From a virus: 25,410 bases of DNA. Below the pieces are notes generated by a model that saw nothing but the letters and a program-made list of their open reading frames with translations, had not been told where the DNA came from and did not search any database. The translations under genes and the position numbers were made by a program. Below are positions 1,111-23,498 of this stretch, piece by piece; position 1 is the first letter of the stretch; every line of letters starts with the position of its first letter. The stretch spans positions 1-25,410 of the IMG/VR virus record IMGVR_UViG_3300025425_000143, one strand, 5' to 3'.

Positions 1111-1560
1111 ATGACTAAAATCGTAAAATCAATTGTAGGCCGTCGGCTAGGATTGGGCGCTAAGGGAAACTTAGTGTCTGAGAACCTGGACATTACGCCG
1201 GCCTGCGCGGGCGCAACCGTTACCGTTAGCGATGAATCAACTAACGTTCGGACAATCACAATCCAACTGACGGACTCTGCTGGAAATGATATCGATTACG
1301 TTGAAAGCGTAGAAGTGGCGGTGTTTACAACTGCCGCTAGGATAGCATTTGCCACAACTGGTGGATCTACAGGAATTGCAATCGGCACAGACGGCGCTCT
1401 TTTAGCTGTTGTTGCGAAGAAGCTTTTTCTTGTTACATCTGAGGCTGACGGAGACATCGACCTAACATGGACAGACACAGGGACTGAGGCTGCCGCAATC
1501 GGCGTTCGCCTTCCCACAGGTGCTTGGGTCATGGGCAGTCAATTGCTCACTAACGCTTAA
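1111..1560 (+). CDS. Predicted beta-rich phage structural protein
   Basis: A 149-residue protein with a strong ribosome site (AAGGAG, 7 bases from ATG). Residues 25-149 are rich in Thr/Val/Ile/Gly with alternating hydrophobic residues (ATVTVSD, RTITIQLTD, GDIDLTWTDTG), as expected for an Ig-like or jelly-roll fold. Proteins of this look occur among phage head or tail accessory proteins, with a recurring ADGDIDLTWTDTGT-type strand near the end. It has its own promoter upstream (1039-1067), so it may be made in large amounts. A decoration or adhesion role is a guess; no precise family is recognised. Confidence 0.6.
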   Translation: MTKIVKSIVGRRLGLGAKGNLVSENLDITPACAGATVTVSDESTNVRTITIQLTDSAGNDIDYVESVEVAVFTTAARIAFATTGGSTGIAIGTDGALLAVVAKKLFLVTSEADGDIDLTWTDTGTEAAAIGVRLPTGAWVMGSQLLTNA

Positions 1561-1591
1561 TAATCAGGTCTTGATGTTGGTGGTTTTTAAT

Positions 1592-1596
1592 AAGGA
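1592..1596 (+). promoter_or_regulatory. Ribosome-binding site deciding the terminase start
   Basis: AAGGA lies 9 bases before an in-frame ATC (1606) and is the only clear Shine-Dalgarno upstream of the terminase frame. No canonical start codon lies between it and the GTG at 1726, which has no comparable site. Confidence 0.45.
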
Positions 1597-1605
1597 CAAC
1601 GAACC

Positions 1606-3219
1606 ATCGACAATCTTGAAGAACTCTTAGGTAGCCTCGACGAGACTGAGCGTAACAAAATTGTTCAGGATCTCGAGGAAAAGACCAAGAGCCTTGTATT
1701 TATCCCGAATGATGGGCCTCAAACCGTGGCCTATTTTCACCCTGCGAATATTATGCTTTACGGCGGGCAAGCTGGCGGTGGTAAATCTGCGCTGCTTTGT
1801 GGTTTGCCGCTGCAAGAGCATAGAAGAAGCCTTTTGCTGCGAAGGGAGTATGGAGATCTGGGCGGGCTGACTGACCAGATGATAGCTTTCAACGGGAAAA
1901 AAGGCTTCGTCGGGTCGCCAAGACCAAAAGTTAGAAGGGAGGACGGGTCTATTATTGACTTCGGTGCCTGCCAATATCTAGGCGATGAGCTTGCATTCCA
2001 AGGACAAGCTCGAGATTTCTACGGCTTCGATGAGGTCACGCAGTTTTTAGAGCAGCAAGTTAGATTTATTATCGGTTGGAACAGACCCGGCCCTGGCGTT
2101 GGGCCAGATCAGAACTGCCGCGTTATCTTTGCGTCGAACCCTCCCACAAACAGCACTGGCGATTGGATTATACCATTTTTCGGTCCGTGGCTTGACCCAA
2201 CCCACCCCAACCCCGCGAAAGACGGTGAGCTTAGATGGTGCTTAACGGATCCTGATGGCAATGACATGTGGGTCGACGGCCCTGAGCCGGTGCAATTCCC
2301 AGGGAGATCTAAGCCGACAATACCGCGCTCGAGAACTTTTGTGCGGGCGTCGCTGGAGGACAACCCTTATTTGATAAACACAGACTATCAATCTGTTTTG
2401 GACGCTATGCCCGAGCCGTTCCGTAGCGCGTACCGCGACGGTAATTTTATGTTGGCAAGGGAGGATGACCTAAAACAGGCCATCCCTACAAGTTGGGTTA
2501 TGGAGGCACAAAAAAGATGGCAGCCGAACCCACCCGAAGACAGCGCTATGTCCGCTTTAGGCTGTGACCCAGCTCAAGGTGGAGCCGACAATATGGTCAT
2601 ATCTACGCGGTATGATTGGTGGTTTTCAGAGCTTATTGTAGTGCCGGGCAAGAGAGTCCCCCAAGGCAGGGATGTCGGGGCAGAGATTATTAAGGCGGCC
2701 CGCGATGGCTGTGACATTGCTATTGACTTAGGCGGCGGCTATGGGTCTGTACCCTACGAGATGCTGGAAGAAAACGGGATAAAAGCTCACAGATACAAAG
2801 GGCAGCAAGCGAAGAATTTAGGTAAGAGCGCCGACGGGCACTTTAGGTTTGTGAACCGCAGGTCGGAGATTATATGGAAGCTGCGCGAGGGCCTGGATCC
2901 ATCGCAGCCCGGCGGGTCGCGAATAGCTTTGCCCCCAGGACAGGAGCTGCTGTCTGACCTGACGACACCGAATTTTGAAATAACAAGCCGCGGGATTAAA
3001 GTTGAAACAAAAGACTCTGTTAAAAAGCGACTAGGACGCTCCACCGACTATGGCGATGCTGTGTGCCTATGTTGGTGGAAGGGTGATAGGGGGCATACGA
3101 CGACGAGCTTTACAAACAACGAAGAGCAAGGTTGGCACGCCCCTAAAAAAAGGAAAAAGCGGAAGACACCAAAGGTTTCATACGGAAAATACGAAAACAG
3201 AATGAGAGGCAAAAGTTAA
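1606..3219 (+). CDS. terL: Terminase large subunit (packaging ATPase and nuclease)
   Basis: The motor that pumps DNA into the prohead and cuts it. Numbering from the proposed ATC start (537 residues): Walker A GQAGGGKS at 54-61, Walker B YGFDE with Asp142/Glu143, coupling motif IFASNPP, then a RuvC-like nuclease domain opening with GCDPAQGG (Asp321) and ending with DYGDA near the C-terminus. The first canonical start in frame is the GTG at 1726, but it would begin only 13 residues before Walker A. Upstream of it the frame still encodes typical family sequence: a leucine/glutamate-rich helix (NLEELLGSL...), then FIPNDGPQ, resembling the PGPQ motif that precedes Walker A in this family. The frame is closed by TAA at 1591-1593, so translation must begin at a non-standard codon, most likely ATC 1606 behind AAGGA. 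The stop overlaps the next ATG (TAATG). Confidence 0.93.
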   Translation: MDNLEELLGSLDETERNKIVQDLEEKTKSLVFIPNDGPQTVAYFHPANIMLYGGQAGGGKSALLCGLPLQEHRRSLLLRREYGDLGGLTDQMIAFNGKKGFVGSPRPKVRREDGSIIDFGACQYLGDELAFQGQARDFYGFDEVTQFLEQQVRFIIGWNRPGPGVGPDQNCRVIFASNPPTNSTGDWIIPFFGPWLDPTHPNPAKDGELRWCLTDPDGNDMWVDGPEPVQFPGRSKPTIPRSRTFVRASLEDNPYLINTDYQSVLDAMPEPFRSAYRDGNFMLAREDDLKQAIPTSWVMEAQKRWQPNPPEDSAMSALGCDPAQGGADNMVISTRYDWWFSELIVVPGKRVPQGRDVGAEIIKAARDGCDIAIDLGGGYGSVPYEMLEENGIKAHRYKGQQAKNLGKSADGHFRFVNRRSEIIWKLREGLDPSQPGGSRIALPPGQELLSDLTTPNFEITSRGIKVETKDSVKKRLGRSTDYGDAVCLCWWKGDRGHTTTSFTNNEEQGWHAPKKRKKRKTPKVSYGKYENRMRGKS

Positions 3220-3701: not shown

Positions 3702-3894
3702 TCCGCCGACGCCAAAACCACCACCACCACCTCCACCACCTCCTCCTCCACCGGATCCAGAGCCAGAGCCCCCGGCCCCTGATCCTGATAGTATTTACAA
3801 TAAAAACAAAGAGCGCAGGAAGTTTGCTTCAGAGCGCCTTCGATCAGGCAGGGCCTCGACGTTCTTAAGCGACGACAACGAAAGGCTTGGTTAG
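3688..3894 (+). CDS. Small polyproline head-tail protein
   Basis: A 68-residue protein. After MGKFSPPTPK come 12 consecutive prolines (residues 11-22), then a Pro/Glu/Asp stretch, and a basic C-terminal half ending RSGRASTFLSDDNERLG. The final RxGRAST-(I/F)LS...LG pattern recurs in small phage proteins encoded next to the portal of podoviruses, so it is likely a minor head or head-tail protein. It overlaps the GNAT gene by 14 bp and its TAG overlaps the GTG start of the portal (TAGTG). The proline run should need elongation factor EF-P to be translated. Confidence 0.65.
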   Translation: MGKFSPPTPKPPPPPPPPPPPPDPEPEPPAPDPDSIYNKNKERRKFASERLRSGRASTFLSDDNERLG

Positions 3895-5567
3895 TGGAAG
3901 AGGCCAACAAGACCAAAGAACTCACAAGAGTTGCTGACCGCCTTATTGGCGACAGAGCAACTCTCCTTACCCTTTGGCAAACGATTGCCGAAAACTTTTA
4001 TCCTGAGCGCGCGAGCTTCACAACCATACGAGATAAAGGAGAGGAGTTCGCCGACCACCTCACGACATCCTATCCCCTTCTGGCTCGCCGGGAGCTGGGT
4101 AATTCACTGAGCTCCATGCTCCGTCCTAGAAGCCAGCAGTGGTTTTACACGCAAACTGGGTACGAAGAGCTAGAGGATATTGACGGGCGCGAGTGGTTAG
4201 AGTACGCGAACATGATTCAGCGCCGGGCTATGTACGATAAGGACTCAGGTTTTGTCCGAGCGACAAAAGAGGGCGACAATGATTTTGTTACTTTCGGCCA
4301 ATGCGTAATTTCTACCGTTATGAACTACTCGACAATGACCCTTTCATACAGGTGCCACCACCTAAGGGACATGGCCTGGTCAGAGGACGCCGCGGGCAAT
4401 GTGAACAAGGTTGTTCGAAAATGGCAACCTACAGCGCGCGAATTGTTGGCGAATAAGACTTTAGATAAACACACAAAAATAGAAGAAATTTTCGATAAAG
4501 ACCCGGACGCAAAAATAGAGTGCCGCCACATAGTCATGGAGTCGGAGGAGTATGAGGCCACATGCCGGTCGATGAAGTCCGAGTCGTACAAAAGGGTTCC
4601 CCAGCCTTATGTATCGATTTACGTTGATGTCGACAACGGCAAGGTTATGCAAGAGCGGGGGTCTTGGACTAAGATTTACACGATACCAAGATGGCAAACA
4701 GTATCAGATTCGCAGTACTCTTATAGCCCTTGCACAACAATCGCCCTGCCCGACGCTCGCCTTATGCAGGCCGTTGCTTTAACGCTTCTCGAGGCAGGAG
4801 AGAATTTTGTAAGGCCACCTATGGTCGCTGTTGAGGACGCCATTCGCGACGATGTTCAGTTGTTTTCTGGGGGGATCACTTGGGTTGACTCAGCCTACGA
4901 TGAGCGGTTGGGCGATGTTCTCCGGCCTTTGACGCAAGACAAGGGGGGCTTTAATATCGGTTTTAATATGCAGGAGGAGATGCGCAAATCCATATCTGAA
5001 GCGTTCTTCCTTAACAAACTTAACTTACCAGACACCGGCAGCCGCCGCATGACTGAGTATGAGGTCAGCCAGAGGATCCAAGAATACGTGCGAAGCGCCC
5101 TGCCGTTGCTTGAGCCTGCTGAGCACGACTACAACCAAGATATTTGTCAGACAAGCTTTAGCTTAATGCTGCGCAACGGTGGGTACGGCCCGCTTGAGAA
5201 TATACCCCCGTCTATTGATCTTGAAAATATCAGGTTTAGCTTTGAGAGCCCGATACACCAAGCTGAGGAGCGTCTTAAAGGGCAGACGTTCTTGCAAGCT
5301 AAAGGGCTATTGGTCGAGGCGCTGGCTCTTGACCCAAGCTCGGCGAATGCACTTGACATTAAGGTTGCATTGCGCGACGCTCTTAAGGGTGTTCAAACGC
5401 CTGCGAAGTGGCTGAGAACAGAAGAAGAAATCGAAGGCCTCGAAATTCAAGAAGAGCAGAACGCAAGGGCACAAGAACTACTTGGCACACTCGGACAGGG
5501 CGCTGCGGTTGCTGAGCAAATAGGCAAAGCTGGACAAGCTTTACAGCAAATCGAAGGTGAGCAGTGA
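3894..5567 (+). CDS. Portal protein (head-to-tail connector, podovirus type)
   Basis: A 557-residue protein of the bacteriophage head-to-tail connecting family, which forms the twelve-subunit ring through which DNA enters and leaves the capsid. Diagnostic features are the N-terminal DRATLLTLWQTIAENFYPER segment (residues 20-39), then RRELGNSLSSMLRP (residues 65-78), the long middle region with aromatic and Asp/Arg clusters, and a C-terminal Glu/Gln/Ala-rich coiled coil from about residue 500. Length is normal for the family. The start is GTG, overlapping the previous stop as TAGTG; its own stop overlaps the next GTG (GTGA). Position between terminase and scaffold is as expected. Confidence 0.9.
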   Translation: MEEANKTKELTRVADRLIGDRATLLTLWQTIAENFYPERASFTTIRDKGEEFADHLTTSYPLLARRELGNSLSSMLRPRSQQWFYTQTGYEELEDIDGREWLEYANMIQRRAMYDKDSGFVRATKEGDNDFVTFGQCVISTVMNYSTMTLSYRCHHLRDMAWSEDAAGNVNKVVRKWQPTARELLANKTLDKHTKIEEIFDKDPDAKIECRHIVMESEEYEATCRSMKSESYKRVPQPYVSIYVDVDNGKVMQERGSWTKIYTIPRWQTVSDSQYSYSPCTTIALPDARLMQAVALTLLEAGENFVRPPMVAVEDAIRDDVQLFSGGITWVDSAYDERLGDVLRPLTQDKGGFNIGFNMQEEMRKSISEAFFLNKLNLPDTGSRRMTEYEVSQRIQEYVRSALPLLEPAEHDYNQDICQTSFSLMLRNGGYGPLENIPPSIDLENIRFSFESPIHQAEERLKGQTFLQAKGLLVEALALDPSSANALDIKVALRDALKGVQTPAKWLRTEEEIEGLEIQEEQNARAQELLGTLGQGAAVAEQIGKAGQALQQIEGEQ

Positions 5568-5902
5568 AAGTCGTACAGGACAACAACGGCACAAGATATC
5601 TTGTGCCGCCGGACGAAATAAAATCAAAACCATGGGCACCAACAAGAGTATCGGTGCCTGTTATCTACGCTCTACAGCGTATGGAAAAGGGCGAGGCTTC
5701 TGCCCAAGACCAAACAGCCGTCCTTAAATGGATTACAAGAGATCTTTGCGGTATTGGAGACCTGTCTTACAGGCCCGAAAGCGCAAGGGAAACCGACTTT
5801 GCAGAAGGAAAAAGATTTTGCGGTCTGCAAATTGAACGCTATATAGGCATAAATCTAAAACTATATTTGGAGGAAGAAAATGGACAACGAACCGAATCCT
5901 AA
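5564..5902 (+). CDS. Bbp19-like small phage protein
   Basis: A 112-residue protein beginning with GTG inside the portal stop codon (GTGA). The segment at residues 50-90 (AVLKWITRDLCGIGDLSY, then ETDFAEGKRFCGLQIERYIGI) matches the Bbp19-like layout: a short helix, then T-x-F-x-E-G-x-R/K, then a hydrophobic helix. Such proteins lie between portal and scaffold in podoviruses related to Bordetella phage BPP-1. Their molecular role is unknown. The last 23 bases overlap the scaffold gene. Confidence 0.6.
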   Translation: MKVVQDNNGTRYLVPPDEIKSKPWAPTRVSVPVIYALQRMEKGEASAQDQTAVLKWITRDLCGIGDLSYRPESARETDFAEGKRFCGLQIERYIGINLKLYLEEENGQRTES

Positions 5903-6869
5903 CGAACCAACACCTAATGAGCCTGCCCCCGCTGCGGACGCACCTGCGCCTGCACCAGCCCCCAACAGCGACTCAGTCCCCGCACCGGAAAATGATTCGA
6001 AGCCAGCGCCAGCGAACAACACTGCTTTCGGTGACGACAACGCCGCGGCACAACAAAACGACGAGGGCGACAACACTCCTAAAAATTGGCCCGACAATTG
6101 GCGCGAAATATACGCCGGCGAAGATGAGAAGAAGCTTGCAAAGCTGAATAGATATACAGATCCAAAGGCTGCGCTCGATGCTTTGTTCTCAGCTCAAGGG
6201 AAAATCGGTGGAGAAGGCGCGCCCACAGAGTTTCCCAAGGACGGCACAGATGAAGACAAAGCTTTATGGCGCGGGGAAAATGACATCCCTAAGGAGTGGT
6301 CAGACTATGACACAAGCTTTGACGATGGCTTTAAGTGGGGTGAGGCAGACCAACCATATGTCAACGCTTTTTTGGAGAAAATGCACGGCCAAAACGCAAA
6401 CCCTGCGTTAGTTAAGGCGGGCTTAGAGTCATACAAAGAGATTTTAGAAGAAGAGGGGGCGGCCAGGCAAGCTCAAGACGTTTCTGACAAAAGAGATTTT
6501 GAGGACGAGCAGCGCGCAGATTGGGGCTCATCCTATAGGTCGAACATAAACCTCGTCAAGAATTACCTCGACACACTTCCTGGAGAAGTCTCGGAGGGCA
6601 TCCAAAATGGCAGGGGTGAGGACGGTAAGGCGTTTCTTAACAAGCCCACTTTTGTAAATTGGCTTGTTAACGACGTGATTAATCAAGTAAACCCTGAAAT
6701 CACCATCTTAACCCAGACGGGCGCAAAAAATTCCGCGGGTATAGATGATGAGCTTAGTGAGATCGCTGGAAAGCGCAAAACCAATCGTAAGGCCTACTTC
6801 GCAGATAAGGATTTGTTGGCGCGTGAGCGTGATCTTCTCGACGCTCAACAGAAGCTCAAGAAGAAATAA
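5880..6869 (+). CDS. Capsid scaffold / assembly protein
   Basis: A 329-residue acidic protein with ribosome site GGAGGAA before the ATG. Residues 1-60 are a low-complexity Pro/Ala/Asn/Glu segment, residues 66-110 contain NWPDNWREIYAG followed by a RYTDPKAALDA helix, the middle is Glu/Lys/Gln-rich helix, and the C-terminus is basic (QQKLKKK). This layout, a disordered acidic N-terminus, a 'W...aGdd.k....l.RY.dp' block and a basic capsid-binding tail, is typical of podoviral scaffolding proteins, which direct coat assembly and then leave. It lies directly before the major capsid gene. Confidence 0.82.
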   Translation: MDNEPNPNEPTPNEPAPAADAPAPAPAPNSDSVPAPENDSKPAPANNTAFGDDNAAAQQNDEGDNTPKNWPDNWREIYAGEDEKKLAKLNRYTDPKAALDALFSAQGKIGGEGAPTEFPKDGTDEDKALWRGENDIPKEWSDYDTSFDDGFKWGEADQPYVNAFLEKMHGQNANPALVKAGLESYKEILEEEGAARQAQDVSDKRDFEDEQRADWGSSYRSNINLVKNYLDTLPGEVSEGIQNGRGEDGKAFLNKPTFVNWLVNDVINQVNPEITILTQTGAKNSAGIDDELSEIAGKRKTNRKAYFADKDLLARERDLLDAQQKLKKK

Positions 6870-6872
6870 TTC

Positions 6873-6900
6873 TTGAAATTATTAAAATTGCTGGTATATT
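6873..6900 (+). promoter_or_regulatory. Extended -10 sigma70 promoter before the capsid gene
   Basis: TTGAAA at 6873-6878 (five of six matches), a 16-base spacer, and TATATT at 6895-6900 preceded by TGG, which makes a TGnTATATT extended -10. Transcription would start near 6907, giving an untranslated leader of about 200 bases. It sits immediately after the scaffold stop codon, so the capsid gene can be transcribed above the level of the upstream operon. Confidence 0.6.
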
Positions 6901-7104
6901 GACAATGTAGATACCCCGCCCTTGCGGCCCTGCACTAAATTTGGTCGTCTTACCAAAGGCCCCTAAGTTTAGCAAGTAACGGCCCCGATTAGTCGGGCAC
7001 CCCGTAAACGCCATTCAAAGGACACCCCTGATATAGGTACAGATTAATAACTGTAATATCTTGGGGCAATCCTGCCTCCAAAATAAATATGAATGGAGAA
7101 AAGA
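6901..7104 (+). ncRNA. Structured 5' leader of the capsid mRNA
   Basis: No open frame of use exists here, but three inverted repeats are visible. Hairpin 1: TTTGGT 6940-6945 with ACCAAA 6952-6957, flanked by CTAAA 6935-6939 with TTTAG 6968-6972. Hairpin 2: CCCGA 6984-6988 with TCGGG 6993-6997 around TTAG. Hairpin 3: CCCC 7025-7028, GATAT 7030-7034 and ACAG 7039-7042 pairing with CTGT 7051-7054, ATATC 7056-7060 and GGGG 7063-7066. None is followed by a T-run, so they are not intrinsic terminators. The capsid Shine-Dalgarno (7095-7098) is left single stranded. Likely roles are mRNA stability, RNase processing or translation control. Confidence 0.45.
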
Positions 7105-7956
7105 ATGGCTACTTCAGCTTTTCAGATTCAGTATCGTCAACAATTAATTGACGGCTTTGAGCAAAGAGAATCGTTGCTCCGCATGTCCGCTACCACGGAA
7201 TATGTGAACAAAGGCGGAAGCGCAGTATTTTGTGTCGCAGACTCAAATAGCGCAGAAGCATCAACACGCGGCTTAAACGGTAACATTCCTTACCGCTCGC
7301 AAAACCTCAACCAAAACACAGCGACATTGCAAGAGTGGCATGACCTCGTTCGTTTGACTGGCTTCAATATTTTCGCAAGCCAAGGCGACCAGGTAGCACA
7401 AATGCAAAAAGACTCTGTAGGTGTGATCAACAGAAAGATTGATGATATCATCATCGATCAACTTGAGACGATCACAGCGAATACAGGGGCTGCTGGCACC
7501 ATGAGCTTTGAGACGTTCTTGCACTCTCACACTATTTTGCAGAACAACGAAGTACCAAACGACGGTCAGATCAATTTCGTGATCACGCCGGCGGCTTTTG
7601 CGTACCTCGCTCAAACAACTGAGTTTGCAAGCGCAGACTACGTAAATGTTCGTCCGGTTCAGGATGGTCAAACAGCCTTCGACGATAGTGAGAAGCTTTA
7701 TAAGTGGCTCAATATCAATGTGATCGTTCACCCGCGCCTTCCAGGCGCAGGCACGGCTGCTGAGAAGTGCTTTATGTACCATCGATCATCTATCGGTCAC
7801 GCTATGGATACCGGTGGTATGCAGACATTCGTTAATTACGACGAAGAGCAAGACTATAGTTATGCTCGCTGTTCTGGGTACATGGGCACCAAGCTGCTTC
7901 AGCAGTCTGGTGGCGTAGTTATCAACCATGACGGCTCTGCTTACGCAGCAAGCTAA
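7105..7956 (+). CDS. Major capsid protein
   Basis: A 283-residue protein, the coat of the icosahedral head. It follows the scaffold and precedes a small head-associated protein, which is the usual order. Recognisable features are the N-terminal MATSAFQIQYRQQ, the middle helix FASQGDQVAQMQKDSVGVI followed by NRKIDDIIIDQLET, then a beta-rich domain containing FVITPAAFAYLAQ, and HPRLPG, and a C-terminus with GHAMDTGGM and YDEEQDYSYARCSGYMG. It resembles the HK97-fold coat proteins of podoviruses. An upstream in-frame ATG at 7093 would add four residues, but GGAG at 7095-7098 is properly spaced (6 bases) only for the ATG at 7105. Confidence 0.88.
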   Translation: MATSAFQIQYRQQLIDGFEQRESLLRMSATTEYVNKGGSAVFCVADSNSAEASTRGLNGNIPYRSQNLNQNTATLQEWHDLVRLTGFNIFASQGDQVAQMQKDSVGVINRKIDDIIIDQLETITANTGAAGTMSFETFLHSHTILQNNEVPNDGQINFVITPAAFAYLAQTTEFASADYVNVRPVQDGQTAFDDSEKLYKWLNINVIVHPRLPGAGTAAEKCFMYHRSSIGHAMDTGGMQTFVNYDEEQDYSYARCSGYMGTKLLQQSGGVVINHDGSAYAAS

Positions 7957-7979
7957 TCTAATATAGAAAGGTAGATAAA

Positions 7980-8273
7980 ATGGCTTACTCAACATCAAAC
8001 CCACCCCAACTTCTTGTGTGCTCTTTTGACGGCACAAGCCCCGGAATGTGGACTTACTCTTCTACGGACACAGCATCTGCTGTGGATTTAGACGGGTATA
8101 TCTCTGACGGGCAAGATTTAGGGATGCGTGTCGGCGACCTTGTTATGGTCACAGACACCGACGCTTCGCCTGTTATTGTGACGATGCATAGAGTGGCGTC
8201 GCTTTCCGCGGTTAACCGCTCAGTGGATCTTACAGACGGCAATACTTTAGTCACTGGTACTGATTCAGATTAA
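7980..8273 (+). CDS. Small head-associated protein (possible decoration or cement protein)
   Basis: A 97-residue beta-rich protein starting MAYSTSNPPQLL and carrying the pattern W-x-YSSTD...GYISDGQDLGMRVGDLVMVTDTD, with a conserved-looking G(Y/F)-x-x-x-G-x-DLGMRVGD core at residues 39-55. Proteins with this core are common directly after the capsid gene or in the structural block of tailed phages. It shares the capsid promoter and is followed by a terminator, so it should be made at capsid-like levels, which suits a decoration role. That role is inferred. Confidence 0.68.
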   Translation: MAYSTSNPPQLLVCSFDGTSPGMWTYSSTDTASAVDLDGYISDGQDLGMRVGDLVMVTDTDASPVIVTMHRVASLSAVNRSVDLTDGNTLVTGTDSD

Positions 8274-8297
8274 TCTGGTTGTCCAACGACGTGCCTA

Positions 8298-8335
8298 AAA
8301 ACCCTCGCGTGTTTCACGCGGGGGTTTTCTTTGTT
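8298..8335 (+). terminator. Rho-independent terminator
   Basis: A 14-bp stem pairs 8298-8311 with 8315-8328 (AAAACCC-T-CGCGTG with CACGCG-G-GGGTTTT, one T-G wobble) around a 3-base TTT loop, followed by CTTTGTT. It closes the scaffold/capsid transcript and lies just before the next promoter. Confidence 0.85.
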
Positions 8336-8362
8336 CAAAATATATGGGATATTTGTTATACT
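8334..8362 (+). promoter_or_regulatory. Extended -10 promoter after the terminator
   Basis: TTCAAA at 8334-8339 (four of six matches), a 17-base spacer, and TATACT at 8357-8362 preceded by TGT, forming a TGnTATACT extended -10. Predicted transcription start is near 8368. The promoter restarts transcription after the terminator for the tail and ejection gene block, and it rules out the in-frame ATG at 8344 as the start of the next gene on this transcript. Confidence 0.55.
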
Positions 8363-8391
8363 TAGAGCACAAAAAAATGAAAGGCACTGAA

Positions 8392-8928
8392 ATGGCACAA
8401 GCAAAGAAACAACAAAAGCCTATTGAGACTGAAACTGAGACTACCGCCGCACCTGAGGCACCCGCGGAAACTAAGGCGAAAACGCCCTCTAAACCCCGGG
8501 CTGCCCGTAAAGTAATATCCCCAAGATTTAAGCTTGCTGAGTTCAAACGGCAGGTTTTTAGTGTTGATGTCGAGCGCGGCACTGACATTACAGATCTTTT
8601 ATCCCCTGAATATTGGGCTGGTGTTACAGACCAAGTGAGAACTAAATCAAGAATTGAATGCCACTGGGAGGATAATTCTGAGTTTGCTGAGCTTGTTGTT
8701 TTGAGCGCCGGCAAGAATTTCTGTGAGGTAGGGCTTTTGTTCCACAAGAGATTTAACGAGAAAACTGGCGGCGGCGACACAGAAGCTGATAACAACCACT
8801 CTGTAGCCCACCAAGGCAATTTTGATAAGTGGTGTGTTACCCGACTTTCTGATAAGCTGAGACTGCAAAAAGGTTTTGATACAGAGCTACAGGCCCGCAA
8901 GTGGCTTATTGAATACTTGGGAGGTTAG
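8392..8928 (+). CDS. Conserved-looking phage protein of head-tail region, function unknown
   Basis: A 178-residue protein. Residues 1-45 are a Lys/Thr/Ala/Pro/Glu low-complexity leader. The folded part starts near FKLAEFKRQ and contains TDITDLLSPEYWAGVTDQVRTKSRIECHWEDNSEFAELVVLSAG. This has the form 'D-LL-x-P-x-(Y/F)W-x-x-V...I-E-x-x...W/F-x-A-E-L-x-V' seen in small phage proteins between capsid and tail genes, but no function is known to me. In-frame ATGs at 8344 and 8377 are also possible starts. The ATG at 8392 is chosen because AAGG (8381-8384) is well spaced from it and the promoter's -10 lies over 8344. Confidence 0.6.
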   Translation: MAQAKKQQKPIETETETTAAPEAPAETKAKTPSKPRAARKVISPRFKLAEFKRQVFSVDVERGTDITDLLSPEYWAGVTDQVRTKSRIECHWEDNSEFAELVVLSAGKNFCEVGLLFHKRFNEKTGGGDTEADNNHSVAHQGNFDKWCVTRLSDKLRLQKGFDTELQARKWLIEYLGG

Positions 8929-8931
8929 TAA

Positions 8932-9558
8932 TTGACTGACAAGCTATCAATTTATAGAGGCGCTGCGCGGGCACTAGGTTCGCGCAGGATTGCCTCACTT
9001 ACCGCAGGCGGTGAATCAAAACGTGTCTTTGACGACATCTTTGACGACGATTTTATTGATTACGTTTTAAGCCAAGGGTATTGGAATTTTGCTACGCGGG
9101 TGGTTCGCCTTGAGTATGACGCCAGCATTGAGCCGGACGACGGGTATTCTCGGGCGTTTATCAAACCTGACGACTGGATAAGAACCTCGGCGGTTTGTAG
9201 TGATGAATTTTTTAGAGACCCCCTCCAAGAATACGACGACACCGCTGGCCATTTATGGTCCGAACAAGAGGTGTTGTTTGTAAAATATATATCTAACGGA
9301 CCTGATTATGGCGGGGACTACGCAAACTGGCCGCCGTACTTCGCGAAGTATGCGCAGCATTACATGGCCCACGAAGCTTGTGGTAGGATCACTCAGTCCA
9401 CATTAAGCAAAAGAGAAATATACAGCCTCATGAAGCAAAAACTTAAAGAGGCTAAAAACAACGACGCAATGGATCAGCCGGCACGCCAGCTACCTTCAAG
9501 CAACTGGACAAAATCCAGAGGCGGCGGTCGCAGCAAGTACACTACGCGGAGGGGGTAA
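8932..9558 (+). CDS. Tail tubular protein A-like head-tail adaptor
   Basis: A 208-residue protein with a TTG start placed about 8 bases after GGGAGG. The N-terminal helix region (IYRGAARALGSRRIASL) is followed by FIDYVLSQGYWNFATRVVRLEYD (residues 41-63). The 'L-x-x-G-x-WNFA' motif is the hallmark of podoviral tail tubular protein A (T7 gp11-like), which binds beneath the portal and joins the head to the tail nozzle. The helical C-terminal half carries 'YFAKYAQHYMAHEACGRI' and ends in a basic Arg/Gly/Ser tail. The gene directly abuts the nozzle gene, the standard order. Confidence 0.8.
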   Translation: MTDKLSIYRGAARALGSRRIASLTAGGESKRVFDDIFDDDFIDYVLSQGYWNFATRVVRLEYDASIEPDDGYSRAFIKPDDWIRTSAVCSDEFFRDPLQEYDDTAGHLWSEQEVLFVKYISNGPDYGGDYANWPPYFAKYAQHYMAHEACGRITQSTLSKREIYSLMKQKLKEAKNNDAMDQPARQLPSSNWTKSRGGGRSKYTTRRG

Positions 9559-12228
9559 ATGGCTAGAGACATTGTCCCAATACACGCCTTTAACCGCGGC
9601 ATTATTTCGGCGAGAGGTCTGGGGCGCACAGACCTTCGCCAGCGCGTAGGTTTATCCGCCGAGATCCAAACAAATTATATCCCCCGGACATTAGGGTCAA
9701 TGACGATCAGGCCAGGCTGGGAGTACATAGCAGGATCAAATAACAATAAAAAAGCTGTCTACTTCCCTTTTATTTACGCTGTTGACGACCTTGCTTATAT
9801 CGAGATGACTTCGGGAAAAATGAGGGTGTTCGTCGATGACGCGCCCATCACTAGGGCCCCTGTCTCGGCAGCGGTAACAAACTCAGATTTTGCGACAGAC
9901 CTTTCTGGGTGGACAGACAACGATGACTCTGGTGGCGTATCCGGGTACGACACAGGGCAAATGTCTCTTCAGGGCACCGGCAATGATTACGCCAGGATGT
10001 ACCAGGAGGTTTCTATTGATACCGCCGATGAGAGCGAAGAGCACGCTTTTCGTATTGTTGTGAACCAAGGAAAGGTTGACATCACAATAGGTACATCGAT
10101 TGGCGATGATAGCCTCGGTGAGGCCACACTAACAAAAGGCACCCATTCACTAGCCTTTACGCCGGGTAACTCCTCTGTCTTTATCCAAGCAGCGAGTTTA
10201 ACGCCATACCCAACCCTCATTGAAGGCATCTCGATAGAGTCCGGGGGGGTTTTTGAGATAGAGACGCTTTGGAGCGAGTCTGATTTAGCGAACTTAAGGT
10301 GGGATCAATCAGCCGACGTTATATTTATCTCCGCTGACGGGTACAGACAAAAAAAGATCGAGCGTCGCGGTGTAAGGTCTTGGTCTTTAGTCGAGTATCT
10401 GACAGAGGATGGCCCGTTCGGAAATATTAATTTAACCCCAATAAACCTATCAGCAAGCGCTATAACTGGCGCCATAACTTTAACTGCTTCTTCAGCAGTC
10501 TTTAAGTCTGGGGATGTCGGGGGTCTTTACAGGCTTTCCTCGGTCGGGCAGTCTGTTGCGGCGGACGCCTCGGGCGAAGGGCAGTGGAGTGATTATATCA
10601 GGGTTGCGGGCGTTGATGACACTAGGAAGTTCACAATCAACGTAGCAGGCACATGGACCGCCACAGTAACACTACAAAGGTCTGCTGGCGATCCTGGGAA
10701 TTGGGTTGATGTCGAGACGTACACATCGAACCAAGCTGATGTGATTTACGACGACACCTTCGATAACAGTATTATGTTCTATAGAATCGGCATCGATGCC
10801 GGGGATTACACGTCAGGCACCGCTGAGCTATCTTTAACTTACGACACAGGGTCTATTACTGGTGTTGTTAGGGTGACTGCCTACACAACACCGACTAGCG
10901 TTGAGGCTATTGTTTTGAAAAACCTTGGCGGCACAGCGGCGACAAATGATTGGTTCGAAGGCCAATGGTCCCCGAGGCGGGGATACCCGACAGCGGTGGC
11001 GCTGCATGAGGGCCGATTGTTTTGGGCTGGGAGAAGCAAGGTCTGGGGCTCGGTCTCTGACGGATTCTCTAGTTTTGACGATGAGGTTGACGGCGATAGC
11101 GGCCCTCTCATTAGAACAATAGGCTCAGGCCCCATTGATGTTATTAATTGGATATTCGCCGGCAATAGATTGGTTCTTGGCACGGCGAGCGCAGAGGCTG
11201 TTATTAGGTCGTCTAGTTTTGATGAGCCTCTAGCCCCTTCCGCCTTCAATATAAGGTTCCCGTCCTCTCAGGGGTCGGCCAACGTCCCTGCTGTCAAAGT
11301 CGACAGCACCGGCGTATTTGTGCAGCGGTGCGGCAAGGAGCTTTACAGGCTTGTTTACGACAACGTCCAGACCTTTGATTACAACTCTCAGAGCATGACT
11401 CAGCTTGTTCCTGAGATACTACTCCCCTCTTGTATCCGTTTGGCGGTCCAAAGGCAGCCAGACACTAGAATACATTGTGTTCGCAGTGACGGTAAGGTCG
11501 CGGTGATGATCGACGACCCTGTCGAAGAGGTCAGCGCTTGGGTCCTTGTCGAGACCGACGGCTTTGTTGAGGATGCTTTTGTTATGCCGGGCGCGGAAGA
11601 GGACAGGGTTTATTATTCTGTTCGCCGTGAGATCGGCGGGGAGACCGTACGCTACTTAGAGAAGTGGGCGCTCGAAAGCGAGTGTGTCGGTGGCACGGTT
11701 AGTAATATTGCGGATTCATACAAAACATACTCTGGCGTATCGACAGACACAATAACAGGGCTTGAGCACCTTGAGGGCAAACAGGTTGTGGTTTGGGGCG
11801 CTGGCAAAGCCTTAGGCACATACACTGTCGCCAGCGGGTCGGTTACGCTATCTGAGGCAGTAACCTCTTGTACAATTGGTTTGGGGTACACAGCTCAATA
11901 CAAAACAACAAAACTCGACAATGCATCTGAGGCGAGCACAGCCTTAAACCAGAAAAAACGTGTAGACCAGATTGGCATTATTGCACAAAATCTTCACCAC
12001 CTCGGCCTTCAGTATGGCCCTGACTTCGACACCCTTGATTATTTACCTGAGTCTGAGAACGGGGAAGATGTTGCTGATGACACTATTCACGTTGCGTATG
12101 ACGAGGAGGCCTTCGAGTTTAATGGCGATTGGGACACAGACAGCCGTGTGTGTCTACAGACGGTGGCCCCCTATCCAGCGACAATTTTAGCCCTAACAAT
12201 AAACCAACAGACAAATGAAAGAATTTAA
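9559..12228 (+). CDS. Tail nozzle / tail tubular protein B-like
   Basis: An 889-residue protein, similar in size and layout to T7 gp12-type nozzle proteins. The N-terminus carries FNRGIISARGLGRTDL and later NYIPRTLGSMTIRPGWEY (residues 10-55), the usual 'RpG' opening of this family. Near residues 473-492 is RRGYPTAVALHEGRLFWAGR followed by SDGFSSFDD, the conserved 'G-x-P-x-x-V-x-x-x-x-x-RL-x-x-AG...S...F' nozzle motif. Residues 105-235 and 330-445 look like inserted beta-sandwich domains rich in Thr/Ser/Asp, possibly carbohydrate-binding or Ig-like. A GGAGGGGG ribosome site precedes the ATG. The last 14 bases overlap the following GNAT gene. Confidence 0.82.
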   Translation: MARDIVPIHAFNRGIISARGLGRTDLRQRVGLSAEIQTNYIPRTLGSMTIRPGWEYIAGSNNNKKAVYFPFIYAVDDLAYIEMTSGKMRVFVDDAPITRAPVSAAVTNSDFATDLSGWTDNDDSGGVSGYDTGQMSLQGTGNDYARMYQEVSIDTADESEEHAFRIVVNQGKVDITIGTSIGDDSLGEATLTKGTHSLAFTPGNSSVFIQAASLTPYPTLIEGISIESGGVFEIETLWSESDLANLRWDQSADVIFISADGYRQKKIERRGVRSWSLVEYLTEDGPFGNINLTPINLSASAITGAITLTASSAVFKSGDVGGLYRLSSVGQSVAADASGEGQWSDYIRVAGVDDTRKFTINVAGTWTATVTLQRSAGDPGNWVDVETYTSNQADVIYDDTFDNSIMFYRIGIDAGDYTSGTAELSLTYDTGSITGVVRVTAYTTPTSVEAIVLKNLGGTAATNDWFEGQWSPRRGYPTAVALHEGRLFWAGRSKVWGSVSDGFSSFDDEVDGDSGPLIRTIGSGPIDVINWIFAGNRLVLGTASAEAVIRSSSFDEPLAPSAFNIRFPSSQGSANVPAVKVDSTGVFVQRCGKELYRLVYDNVQTFDYNSQSMTQLVPEILLPSCIRLAVQRQPDTRIHCVRSDGKVAVMIDDPVEEVSAWVLVETDGFVEDAFVMPGAEEDRVYYSVRREIGGETVRYLEKWALESECVGGTVSNIADSYKTYSGVSTDTITGLEHLEGKQVVVWGAGKALGTYTVASGSVTLSEAVTSCTIGLGYTAQYKTTKLDNASEASTALNQKKRVDQIGIIAQNLHHLGLQYGPDFDTLDYLPESENGEDVADDTIHVAYDEEAFEFNGDWDTDSRVCLQTVAPYPATILALTINQQTNERI

Positions 12229-12595
12229 TATTAGGCCAGCCGTGGACGCTGATCTTGGCGACTTTAAGGTAGGCGCCTCAATGCCCCCGTTTTCTTGTAA
12301 GATATGGGCGGTCGAGCACGACGGGAAGGTCTGTGGGGTTTTTGGTTTCGTGTACGCGCCGAATAATTTAATTGCTTTTTCTGAAATATCGGATGGTATT
12401 GACGTTCCGCTTATGACAAAATGGAAGGCGATTGAAAAGTCAATGGATGTCTTAAAGAAACATTCGTCGTCTTTTTATGCTATAAGTAGTCAGGACCATG
12501 ATAACTCTGGTAAGATGTTGCGGAAGCTTGGTTTTGATTTTTTTAAGACAACACACGAAACGGATTTCTATATATGGCAGACGCACTTACAATAG
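12215..12595 (+). CDS. GNAT-like acetyltransferase (small, divergent)
   Basis: A 126-residue protein. IRPAVDADLGDF at the N-terminus, a central strand pair WAVEHDGKVCGVFGFV (residues 31-46), and the C-terminal 'NSGKMLRKLGFDFF' (residues 97-110) match the beginning, centre and motif B of GNAT enzymes. The acetyl-CoA loop of motif A (Arg/Gln-x-x-Gly-x-Gly) is not evident, so activity is uncertain. The gene is AT-rich relative to neighbours (64 of 180 bases G/C at 12361-12540, 36%). It overlaps the genes on both sides (14 and 22 bp). It is only loosely similar to the GNAT at 3219-3701. Confidence 0.6.
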   Translation: MKEFNIRPAVDADLGDFKVGASMPPFSCKIWAVEHDGKVCGVFGFVYAPNNLIAFSEISDGIDVPLMTKWKAIEKSMDVLKKHSSSFYAISSQDHDNSGKMLRKLGFDFFKTTHETDFYIWQTHLQ

Positions 12596-13248
12596 GAGGG
12601 ATTGTGTTCTCAGCCTTTAGCGCCATACAGCAAGGCAACGTGCAAAAGGACGCTTACGATGAGCAGGCCCGCCAAGCGGAGTTTATAGGGCAAAGAAACG
12701 CTAAAATCGTTGAGGACCGCGCGGCGTATGACTCCGATAGACTAAAAGAAGACGCTAATAGAGAGCGCGCCGCTGGCACAAGGCGTGCTATCGAGGCCCG
12801 CAGAGAAAAAAGATCAACACAATCACGCGCTCTTGCTGTGGGCGCTGCGTCCGGCGGCGGCGCATTCGACGCTACAGTAGAGAACATCCAGGGAGATATA
12901 GGGCAGGAGGGCGAATACAACGCGTTGTCTGAGCTGTTCCTCGGGGATAGCGCCGCGGCCAACTTAACGTCGGCTGCCGATTTAACCGTCTATGATGCAG
13001 GAATTCAAGCTGATAACATAAGATACGGCGCTGCGGCAAATGCCAGTAATATGCGGTTCCAAGGCAAATCAGCAAGATATTCTGGATACATGAACGCGGC
13101 AGGCACAGTCATTTCCGGCGCAGGAAGCTTATACGACAAGTACGGCGGTACGGCTACAACCGGAGGAGGTGGTGGAGGTGGTGGTGGAGGTGGTGGTGGT
13201 GGCGACCGCATTGACTGGGCTCGACCTAGATATGCGGGGTATAATTAA
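12574..13248 (+). CDS. Internal virion protein (T7 gp14-like) with polyglycine tail
   Basis: A 224-residue protein starting MADALTIGGIVFSAFSAIQQG, a hydrophobic glycine-containing segment, followed by a long Ala/Arg/Glu helix (residues 25-85) and an ASGGG segment, then FDATVENIQGDIGQEGEYNALSEL. This order, a glycine-rich start, alanine-rich helix and 'aasGgg...d....d...eg.....', is typical of the smallest podoviral ejection protein, which inserts in the outer membrane during DNA delivery in T7. A run of 14 glycines (codons 197-210) precedes a short GDRIDWARPRYAGYN end. The start lies inside the GNAT gene; the stop overlaps the next ATG (TAATG). Confidence 0.7.
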   Translation: MADALTIGGIVFSAFSAIQQGNVQKDAYDEQARQAEFIGQRNAKIVEDRAAYDSDRLKEDANRERAAGTRRAIEARREKRSTQSRALAVGAASGGGAFDATVENIQGDIGQEGEYNALSELFLGDSAAANLTSAADLTVYDAGIQADNIRYGAAANASNMRFQGKSARYSGYMNAAGTVISGAGSLYDKYGGTATTGGGGGGGGGGGGGGDRIDWARPRYAGYN

Positions 13249-15620
13249 TGCCCCCTCGCTTACCGACAGAAAAAGGCAGGAACGATATCAGGACCATAAG
13301 ATCAGCTAAGGCTGGCTCAGCCGGGCCTGTTTTGCTCCAAGACCCCTACCTCACATCAAATGTTTCCATCGCTAATTCGTCGGCCATTTCCGACGCAGTC
13401 GCGGGTGTTGCTGTTGATCTAAAAAGTAAAAAAGAAGACAGGGCTGCCGCGAAAGGAAAATTCGCCTTAGCCCGCGCGAAAGTAAGCTTTTTAGAGCAGC
13501 GCCTTGCTATTGAAGATGAGATCAATAACGACGCTAATTATGAGGGGCACGTCGCCTTGTATGAGAAGAAAATACAAAAAGCGCTTACGGACACTCAGGG
13601 CACATTCAGGGTTGACCAAAGGTATCTACCCGATTTTCAGCTCGCGGCGAGAGAAGAGATTGCGTTTGGAAGATCCCGGGTGAAGGCGGGTGTCGACACC
13701 AAAAGAAGAGACGTAGGCGCCACGCAGTACGGCATAGATATGCAAAAATTAAAAGAGAGAATAGCGTCCACCAAAGATCCCGCACAAAGGGCCGAGCTCT
13801 TTAAAACAGCGTCGCAAGCCACTGACGGAGCCTACGCAAACATGTTTATTGACCAGCCGACTGCTCTTGTTAATAAGAAAAACTTTCCGCGCGATGTGGC
13901 CCTTCTCACTGCGGAGAACAGCCCGCCGGACGAGATACTTGCTGAGCTTGACCCTAAGATGGAGGTTGATGTCTACCCCCACATGTCTGAGGCAGCCAAG
14001 AACAAAGGCCTGCCGGATGATTACCTCCCGAGGGTAGCGCGGATAGAGAGTGATGGAAACACGCAAGCAATTAACGACGCCACGCAAGCAACAGGGCTCT
14101 TCCAATTCAAGCCTAGCGTTGCCGACGCATACGGGATTGATCCTACCGACCCAGTGCAATCTATAACCGCCGCCGCTGAGCTTGCGGACAACAACAGAAG
14201 GGGCCTTAGGTCTTCGATTAAAAGAGAGCCCACAGCCCAAGAAATTTACTTGGCGCACCAACAAGGCGCTACTGGGGCCGCGGCTCTTTTGAATAACCCG
14301 GATACAAACGCTGTCGATGTTCTTGAGGGCGTATATGGCAACAGGGGGACGGCGCTTAAGGCTGTTACGCTAAACGGGGGGGCTGTCGAAGACACGGCGC
14401 AAGAATTCGCCAACAGGCATTTTAAAAAATACAGCGATGCAAAGCCTGTCACGCATATTGCGGATATACAATACGGCCCGAAGAAGGGGTCTATTTATGA
14501 CTTTCTCAGTGTCGGGGAAAGAAACGCCCTAGCTCGAGGCGCCCTAGAGGCCCAAGCTTTAACGAGGGCGGAATCTGACCCTGTTGGGTTTCTGTCTGGA
14601 CATGACGACGGGCAGTACGACATGATGGGTGTAAAAAAGAAAAGAGAGATCCGTGCTATTGCTGAGCAAGAGCTAGAGCGGTCCATACAGGCGCCCATTG
14701 TAGGAAAAATCAGAAACGAAATAAAATACGATGCTTTTATTTACAACCCCAATATACCGTCTGCTCAGAAGTACAGGTTATTAGCCGACCTAAACAGTAG
14801 GGGTGAGGTTAGAGAAGAGTGGGTTACGAAAGCCCGCGCGGTTGCGGCAGGGTTTTCGAACGACAAGACACCACCGACTGAGACAGAGAAGCACAATAAT
14901 TTGGGAGACTTGTCCCGGGAACTTTCCCAGCTCTATATCACATTTGGGGGCACTGCTAGCGGTTTCGACGCGGATAAAGATGTTGTTCTTAACAGGGAAA
15001 GAATGGCCGCGTACAACAGTCTTAAGTCGAGTGTTTCTAGTGCCGTACAAAACGGCTTTATGACGGGGCCGCAGGCGTCTTCTTTTATTGAAAACGTCGA
15101 AAGAAATGTGGTCCAGACCATAGAGGATAAGAGTTTTGAATCAGAGGGCAGAACGGACGAAGGGTTTTTTGGCAACAAGATAGATCCGTACTCTGACACG
15201 CTCTCTGCGGTTGACATCTACGCAGATTCTCTCGGGATGAACGACGAGCAAAGGTCAAGATATAGATATGATGTCTTCACGAATATCAGTAATTTTTTTG
15301 GTGAGTACGACGCTAAGGGAGACTATAAAATAACAGGAGAATTTAAAACAACCGATAACGCAGCGCAAGACAAAAAAAATATTATCGGGGCTGTTGAGGC
15401 CGCCACCAAACAACTAAATATTAATAATTATGCGGGTCGAGTTGACCCCCAAAACCCGCCCAACTCCTATGTTTCTGCGCAACCAACAGCCCTCTCTAGG
15501 TACGTGCCGCCGGAGATGTTCTTTAATAGCCTTGAAGATATGGAGAAAGCCAATCTTCCGCCAGGGACGCGCGTTGTTGTAAATGGTCGGCTGGGTACGT
15601 TTTACGAGGACGACGAATAA
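13248..15620 (+). CDS. Internal virion protein with lytic transglycosylase domain
   Basis: A 790-residue protein. Residues 40-220 are mostly charged helix. Residues 258-350 form an SLT-type lytic transglycosylase: LPRVARIESDGN with catalytic Glu267, then ATQATGLFQFKPSVADAYG, and later IYLAHQQGATGAAALL, the three motifs of this goose-lysozyme-like fold. The domain cleaves peptidoglycan and would open the cell wall for DNA ejection from inside the virion. In T7 the enzyme sits at the front of gp16; here it is in the middle-size ejection protein, which otherwise occupies the gp15 position. The rest, to the C-terminus, has no recognised domain. Stop and next ATG overlap (TAATG). Confidence 0.82.
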   Translation: MPPRLPTEKGRNDIRTIRSAKAGSAGPVLLQDPYLTSNVSIANSSAISDAVAGVAVDLKSKKEDRAAAKGKFALARAKVSFLEQRLAIEDEINNDANYEGHVALYEKKIQKALTDTQGTFRVDQRYLPDFQLAAREEIAFGRSRVKAGVDTKRRDVGATQYGIDMQKLKERIASTKDPAQRAELFKTASQATDGAYANMFIDQPTALVNKKNFPRDVALLTAENSPPDEILAELDPKMEVDVYPHMSEAAKNKGLPDDYLPRVARIESDGNTQAINDATQATGLFQFKPSVADAYGIDPTDPVQSITAAAELADNNRRGLRSSIKREPTAQEIYLAHQQGATGAAALLNNPDTNAVDVLEGVYGNRGTALKAVTLNGGAVEDTAQEFANRHFKKYSDAKPVTHIADIQYGPKKGSIYDFLSVGERNALARGALEAQALTRAESDPVGFLSGHDDGQYDMMGVKKKREIRAIAEQELERSIQAPIVGKIRNEIKYDAFIYNPNIPSAQKYRLLADLNSRGEVREEWVTKARAVAAGFSNDKTPPTETEKHNNLGDLSRELSQLYITFGGTASGFDADKDVVLNRERMAAYNSLKSSVSSAVQNGFMTGPQASSFIENVERNVVQTIEDKSFESEGRTDEGFFGNKIDPYSDTLSAVDIYADSLGMNDEQRSRYRYDVFTNISNFFGEYDAKGDYKITGEFKTTDNAAQDKKNIIGAVEAATKQLNINNYAGRVDPQNPPNSYVSAQPTALSRYVPPEMFFNSLEDMEKANLPPGTRVVVNGRLGTFYEDDE

Positions 15621-23071: not shown

Positions 23072-23320
23072 ATGTTCGGGTTTAACCCATGGATAATTTT
23101 GATTATAGCCGTTGCTTTCACAGCTTATTCGGGAAGTTTGGTCTATAAAGGCTATTCTTGGGGGGCTGGTGTTGAGGAGAGAAAATGTATAGCAGCAGTA
23201 AACGCAGCTAATGCTGAGAATATTGACATAGAAAGGATGCAAAGTGAGACACGCGGTATTATATTTAGCGATGACGATTTTGTTGAGCGCTTGCGGAGCG
23301 CACAGTTCGGGGAGCCTTGA
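23072..23320 (+). CDS. Inner-membrane spanin subunit (Rz-like)
   Basis: An 82-residue protein with one N-terminal membrane segment at residues 7-24 (WIILIIAVAFTAYSGSLV), then a periplasmic helix with Ala/Asn/Glu/Arg (VEERKCIAAVNAANAENIDIE). It sits right after the endolysin and its last 77 bp overlap the lipoprotein subunit in another frame, the classic Rz/Rz1 arrangement. It would bridge the periplasm with the lipoprotein to fuse the two membranes at the end of lysis. It is shorter than lambda Rz (153 residues). Confidence 0.78.
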   Translation: MFGFNPWIILIIAVAFTAYSGSLVYKGYSWGAGVEERKCIAAVNAANAENIDIERMQSETRGIIFSDDDFVERLRSAQFGEP

Positions 23321-23498
23321 GACTCGTAAGCTTTTGCTTCCAGAGGTAAAGAAATATACGCCAGAGCAGCAAAGCACTCTAGCCGATGAGATTGAGCAAT
23401 GTGATGTTCCAACGGCTACTGTATTATTAAAAGATTATGATACCATGCAAAGGGAAACAACTATTGCTGGCAGGAAATTAGACAGGACGAGGGATTAA
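23244..23498 (+). CDS. Outer-membrane spanin lipoprotein (Rz1-like)
   Basis: An 84-residue protein starting with GTG inside the inner spanin gene, in the +1 frame. Residues 1-16 are a lipoprotein signal (MRHAVLYLAMTILLSA) and Cys17 follows the lipobox Leu-Ser-Ala. The residue after Cys is Gly, not Asp, which suits outer membrane sorting. The mature part is short and Lys/Glu/Thr-rich rather than the usual Pro-rich Rz1. The overlapping architecture and lipobox together give a confident o-spanin call. Presence of this protein indicates a Gram-negative host. Confidence 0.8.
   Translation: MRHAVLYLAMTILLSACGAHSSGSLETRKLLLPEVKKYTPEQQSTLADEIEQCDVPTATVLLKDYDTMQRETTIAGRKLDRTRD

Follow-up and report, generated by a model that had tools for sequence, protein, structure and literature searches.

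A phage terminase gene without a canonical start codon where one is required

The large terminase gene (terL) of the phage in IMG/VR virus record IMGVR_UViG_3300025425_000143 has no ordinary start codon at the position where one is required, and its translation probably starts at the ATC codon at position 1606 (AUC in the mRNA). The window, by which we mean the whole stretch of DNA that was analysed, is this 25,410-base record. A start at ATC 1606 had been put forward in the original prediction, whose coordinates all checked out, and it emerges here as the best-supported interpretation; we infer initiation at AUC, its translation as Met and any consequence for terminase dosage.

1588..1593, + strand: tandem TAA TAA closing the terL frame upstream (direct sequence reading)
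1606..3219, + strand: large terminase gene terL, 537 aa counted from ATC, stop codon TAA at 3217-3219 (PHROG 979; fold matches)
1606..1608, + strand: proposed terL start codon ATC (Shine-Dalgarno, homologue start positions, N-terminal profile)
1606..1725, + strand: N-terminal segment lost with a start at GTG 1726; two helices (residues 2-10 and 13-26) followed by the PNDGPQ motif
1705..1722, + strand: PNDGPQ motif including Gln39, which is invariant in all 87 aligned terminases
1726..1728, + strand: GTG, first canonical in-frame start codon of terL, rejected as the start (no Shine-Dalgarno; 12 codons before Walker A)
1762..1788, + strand: Walker A motif GGQAGGGKS, conserved in the alignment

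The frame is shut by the TAA at 1591-1593, as claimed originally, and by the TAA at 1588-1590 as well. Direct reading of codons 1594-1725 found zero ATG, GTG or TTG and confirmed that GTG 1726 is the first of these in frame.

Family membership of the encoded protein is indicated by both of its domains. The Walker A ATPase domain matched the P74-26 ATPase domain (Z ~19) and PHROG 979, while the RNase H-like C-terminal nuclease domain matched the nuclease domains of Sf6 gp2 and E217 (Z ~20), with an rmsd of 3.1 over ~200 residues in the superposition. Fold matches of the model comprised the Sf6, D6E, HK97 and P74-26 terminases, and a profile match to Sf6 gp2 was obtained at 7.6e-07. A Pfam search of the window terminase gave no match; Terminase_6N was found in 25 of 87 relatives. 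The large terminases of Bordetella BPP-1, Caulobacter SR18 and Sf6 (gp2) belong to the same protein family and share its domains, but the phage relatives inspected differ from the window in starting at a canonical codon 48-66 codons before Walker A.

Two side observations concern the relatives. The terL genes of loci L107, L121 and L129 have sequence resembling an intein C-terminus (THN then T or S) right before the Walker A Ser/Thr, and on this sequence likeness may carry inteins at Walker A. Limnohabitans phage DC33 (PQ492659.1, L166) is filed as Inoviridae, yet its 39-kb record encodes a large terminase, and the taxonomy line is probably wrong.

The segment upstream of GTG 1726 is genuine protein

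The 40 codons ahead of GTG 1726, described originally as family-like, are genuine protein, as homologues, a profile, an invariant residue and a confident structural model all support. A profile built from 134 homologous N-termini, with the window excluded, matched the frame opened at 1594 from residue 4 (T, right before ATC) through Walker A at 90.6 bits. Within the PNxGPQ motif of the 87-sequence alignment, P34, G37 and P38 are near-invariant alongside the invariant Gln39, and all four precede GTG 1726. With ATC taken as the start, the AlphaFold model (87-sequence input) reached a mean pLDDT of 91.9 and showed helices beginning at residue 2. Codon usage did not set 1606-1725 apart.

These data bear directly on a start at GTG 1726 with the upstream 40 codons as an untranslated remnant. 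GTG 1726 is the first canonical codon in frame, and the phage does use GTG starts for the genes at 3894, 5564 and 23244. Such a start would, however, remove Gln39, P34, G37 and P38, and it has no Shine-Dalgarno (SD) sequence, while homologues start 36-54 codons further upstream. Alignment of the solved terminases of Sf6, D6E, HK97 and P74-26 to the model begins at residue 26-35, which means that a protein lacking everything before residue 41 would miss part of their common ATPase core. We consider this reading extremely unlikely. Gene callers limited to ATG, GTG and TTG would trim 40 residues, including the invariant motif, from the terminase.

Homologous terminases start close to the position of ATC 1606

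In 148 distinct loci, the window included, we measured how far canonical in-frame codons lie from Walker A. A canonical start was present 48-66 codons before Walker A in 145 loci (120 ATG, 16 GTG and 9 TTG), although a 19-codon span often contains a canonical codon by chance and the survey therefore misses non-canonical starts that have one nearby. ATC 1606 lies 52 codons before Walker A, compared with 12 for GTG 1726, and none of the surveyed homologues needs a start at the GTG 1726 position; homologues beginning there would, according to the original prediction, have counted against its proposal.

Alignment with homologues, suggested originally as a check, placed their initial Met on ATC 1606 or no more than a few codons away. 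Among the closest relatives, the viral homologues L001 (55% identity) and L003 (52%) cover the N-terminal region and begin with Met-Asp where the window reads ATC GAC; their N-termini, MDQDSLNKQ and MDAMENLRR, together with MDLAELTAL of L004, compare with (I)DNLEELLGS in the window. In the alignment, most homologous Met residues are not exactly level with ATC but 1-5 columns further upstream. Family N-termini vary by a few residues, so that a start at ATC 1606 is within the normal range, towards its shorter limit.

Three of the 148 loci had no canonical start at the right place: the window, L026 and L056. The terL of L026 2501 (IMGVR_UViG_3300020213_000111) has an ATT one base after the TAG of the upstream gene (TAG C ATT), with SD GGAG, and relatives at 87% identity use an ATG two codons before the ATT position. 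For L056 2489 (IMGVR_UViG_3300035696_002902), the only plausible start is a CTG after TGAGGGTAGGCC, with SD GAGG. These two genes, each with an SD match of four bases, appear to start at ATT and CTG, respectively, on the same kind of reasoning as applied to the window's ATC. About 2% of the surveyed loci (3/148) thus seem to need a non-canonical start, and such starts may be under-recorded in phages. For the control gene, portal, all 113 loci had a canonical start between −20 and +8 codons; in a narrower range of −12 to +6 one locus had none, L016, which has an ATG at −15. The difference between 3/148 for terL and 0/113 for portal is not significant by itself.

ATC 1606 combines a well-spaced Shine-Dalgarno with the family start position

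1591..1596, + strand: Shine-Dalgarno UAAGGA (0.74% chance per ATC/ATT/ATA triplet)
1574..1630, + strand: short overlapping ATG frame of 18 codons, stop codon TAG at 1628-1630, −1 relative to terL; probably not used

ATC 1606 is the only near-ATG in-frame codon between 1594 and 1725 that pairs a six-base, well-spaced SD with the family start position. The original prediction located the SD correctly but as AAGGA (1592-1596); the match is one base longer, TAAGGA (1591-1596), and lies 9 nt before ATC 1606, which equals 6 nt after a full TAAGGAGGT. Across the whole record and both strands, an SD match of at least six bases at workable spacing occurred for 18 of 2430 ATC, ATT or ATA triplets (0.74%), and the allowed stretch of the terL frame contains three ATC, ATT or ATA triplets in frame. 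With an SD at workable spacing and no canonical in-frame start there, terL shows two features of a gene with a non-canonical AUN start.

The other in-frame codons one base off ATG (ATT 1660, AAG 1681, AAG 1687 and ATC 1702) have SD matches of at most four bases, and none is at a homologue start position, which bears out the claim that ATC 1606 alone has a good SD. Initiation at a different near-cognate codon in the frame, with ATT 1660 or a non-AUN codon as the first candidates, is very unlikely. ATT 1660 is the sole other AUN codon upstream of PNDGPQ that spares the conserved core (residue 26 on), but its SD is only GAG, its distance of 34 codons from Walker A is one at which the survey does not support starts, and its use would lose the first conserved helix.

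Entry by frameshift would instead begin at ATG 1574 and require a −1 shift into the terL frame between 1594 and 1627. The 18-codon frame overlaps the site, and the hairpin predicted at 1573-1615 (described below) lies within it. The frame has no X XXY YYZ slippery heptamer in 1594-1630, in agreement with what had been noted before, and ATG 1574 has only a weak SD (AGGT, −3.2 kcal/mol). The shift must also come after TAA 1591, which means that the first conserved residues would be replaced, and the two-frame arrangement was seen in no homologue. Frameshift entry is accordingly unsupported, and we give it hardly any credence.

Agreement among assemblies bears on sequence error

A sequence error, or a rare or defective variant, would make ATC 1606 a single-base change in the record while the population has an ordinary codon at 1606. 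A single base separates ATC from ATG, relatives at 55% identity use ATG, with ATG GAT in L001 at the window's ATC GAC, and the site is covered by one record only: searches of viral contigs with exact peptides and with DNA patterns on both sides returned no near-identical copies over 1606, and searches of genome contigs returned distant relatives only. Against this, contigs L110, L111 and L165 from other metagenomes match the window at 3971-14690, 6476-12767 and 5224-9294, respectively, with 99.86-100% identity and no gaps. They differ from the record by 0-9 mismatches in 4-11 kb, indicating a reproducible assembly, and from this agreement any one start codon would carry a changed base with a probability of ~0.2-0.4%, a rate exceeded by the 3/148 loci without a canonical start. 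The ATT of L026, two codons from the ATG of its relatives, is no simple miscall of that ATG, and sequence error becomes less probable as a general explanation given that L026 and L056 both lack a canonical start. We judge a base-call error or a rare defective variant at 1608 unlikely.

The phage of the window is a recurrent population, assembled from three other metagenomes (L110, L111 and L165).

Comparison with known non-canonical starts

1111..1560, + strand: upstream gene encoding a conserved protein of 149 aa, strong Shine-Dalgarno TAAGGAG (relatives at 50-81% identity in 41 IMG/VR loci)

ATC is among the rarest bacterial start signals. Non-canonical AUN starts are known, if rarely documented, biochemistry, placed here in an unusual location, a terminase gene; we found no report of a non-ATG terminase start in the openly accessible literature. 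The gene for initiation factor IF3, infC, starts at ATT in E. coli and at ATC in Streptomyces, and sigR of Streptomyces starts at GTC (PMC5472188). The AUU and AUA starts of cvfC1/ccpN in S. aureus yield ~10-30% of AUG output and have strong, extended SDs (PMC13009471), whereas the terL SD is of ordinary length (6 nt). Work cited in PMC12350097 ranked AUC, AUU, AUA and CUG highest among non-canonical start codons measured in E. coli, and the window's ATC, the ATT of L026 and the CTG of L056 all fall within this set.

The proposed terL start resembles that of infC in being a non-canonical AUN codon (PMC5472188), but the infC start serves autoregulation by IF3, while the window gene encodes a phage packaging motor. 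In sigR and cvfC1/ccpN a weak start codon keeps expression low (PMC5472188, PMC13009471), as is proposed for terL, although those are experimentally studied cellular regulators and the window gene is known from sequence alone.

With initiation at AUC, the ribosome would bind the six-base SD UAAGGA and the initiator tRNA would be placed on AUC through the first two bases of the codon, giving a terminase of 537 residues with formyl-Met at its N-terminus. As a weak codon, AUC would hold terminase output below that of the well-initiated gene directly upstream, and the predicted hairpin, with the SD in its loop and AUC paired, may restrain initiation further. Lowered synthesis would suit a motor needed in few copies. 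As a counterpoint, AUC initiates poorly and is completely paired in the predicted hairpin, which makes efficient translation doubtful. If confirmed, the start would be a non-canonical one in an essential phage motor gene and would give a way into the control of terminase dosage.

A predicted hairpin covers the proposed start

1573..1615, + strand: predicted RNA hairpin of 14 pairs with a 14-nt loop showing the SD and AUC in the 3' arm (RNA folding)

The predicted hairpin has a folding energy of −13.8 kcal/mol and, for a 46-nt segment picked after seeing the fold, a z of −3.3; among windows of similar G+C, 0.6% reach an equally good fold, and the excess stability over shuffles was gone in an 80-nt fold (z −0.7). 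The unpaired probability was 0.88-0.99 for the SD and 0.0 for AUC, also in a 260-nt context, making ATC 1606 the least accessible of the 137 terminase starts compared. The ordinary ATG starts of the phage genes at 1111 (0.09) and 13248 (0.03) are also buried, and start burial is thus weak evidence for regulation. L001 has a strong, unrelated hairpin right upstream of its ATG. An Rfam search of 1000-2200 gave no match.

The fold tentatively suggests that the hairpin restrains or gates terminase translation. In translational operator hairpins, such as the RNA-phage replicase operator, the start codon lies within a hairpin near the SD. The window hairpin shares this layout, as a predicted structure that is a lead only. 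C1608 pairs with G1579, and unpairing them costs 4.8 kcal/mol in the folding model. A stronger proposal joins AUC and the hairpin into one translational switch, with the SD shown in the loop, AUC locked in the stem and the odd codon itself strengthening the lock through the C1608-G1579 pair. Terminase would then be made only once a factor or a passing ribosome opened the hairpin, for example late in infection, and codon and hairpin would act as one control device for terminase. We regard such a switch as improbable.

Two other roles for the hairpin were considered and rejected. As a terminator it has no T-run after it and is not listed by the terminator scan, and as a DNA palindrome it has no inverted repeat at the site, because three of its pairs are G-U.

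Neighbouring genes

The upstream gene (1111-1560) had no Pfam or PHROG match, and that it is of structural type is a guess. Its family (the window gene and loci L171-L211) is widespread, adjoining terL in some phages and lying elsewhere in others, and several relatives are followed by an apparent terminator-like hairpin. At 23072-23498 in the window, after the endolysin gene, two overlapping small ORFs, for which no PHROG match was found, have an N-terminal membrane helix or a lipoprotein-like signal (LLSAC) and look like an overlapping spanin pair.
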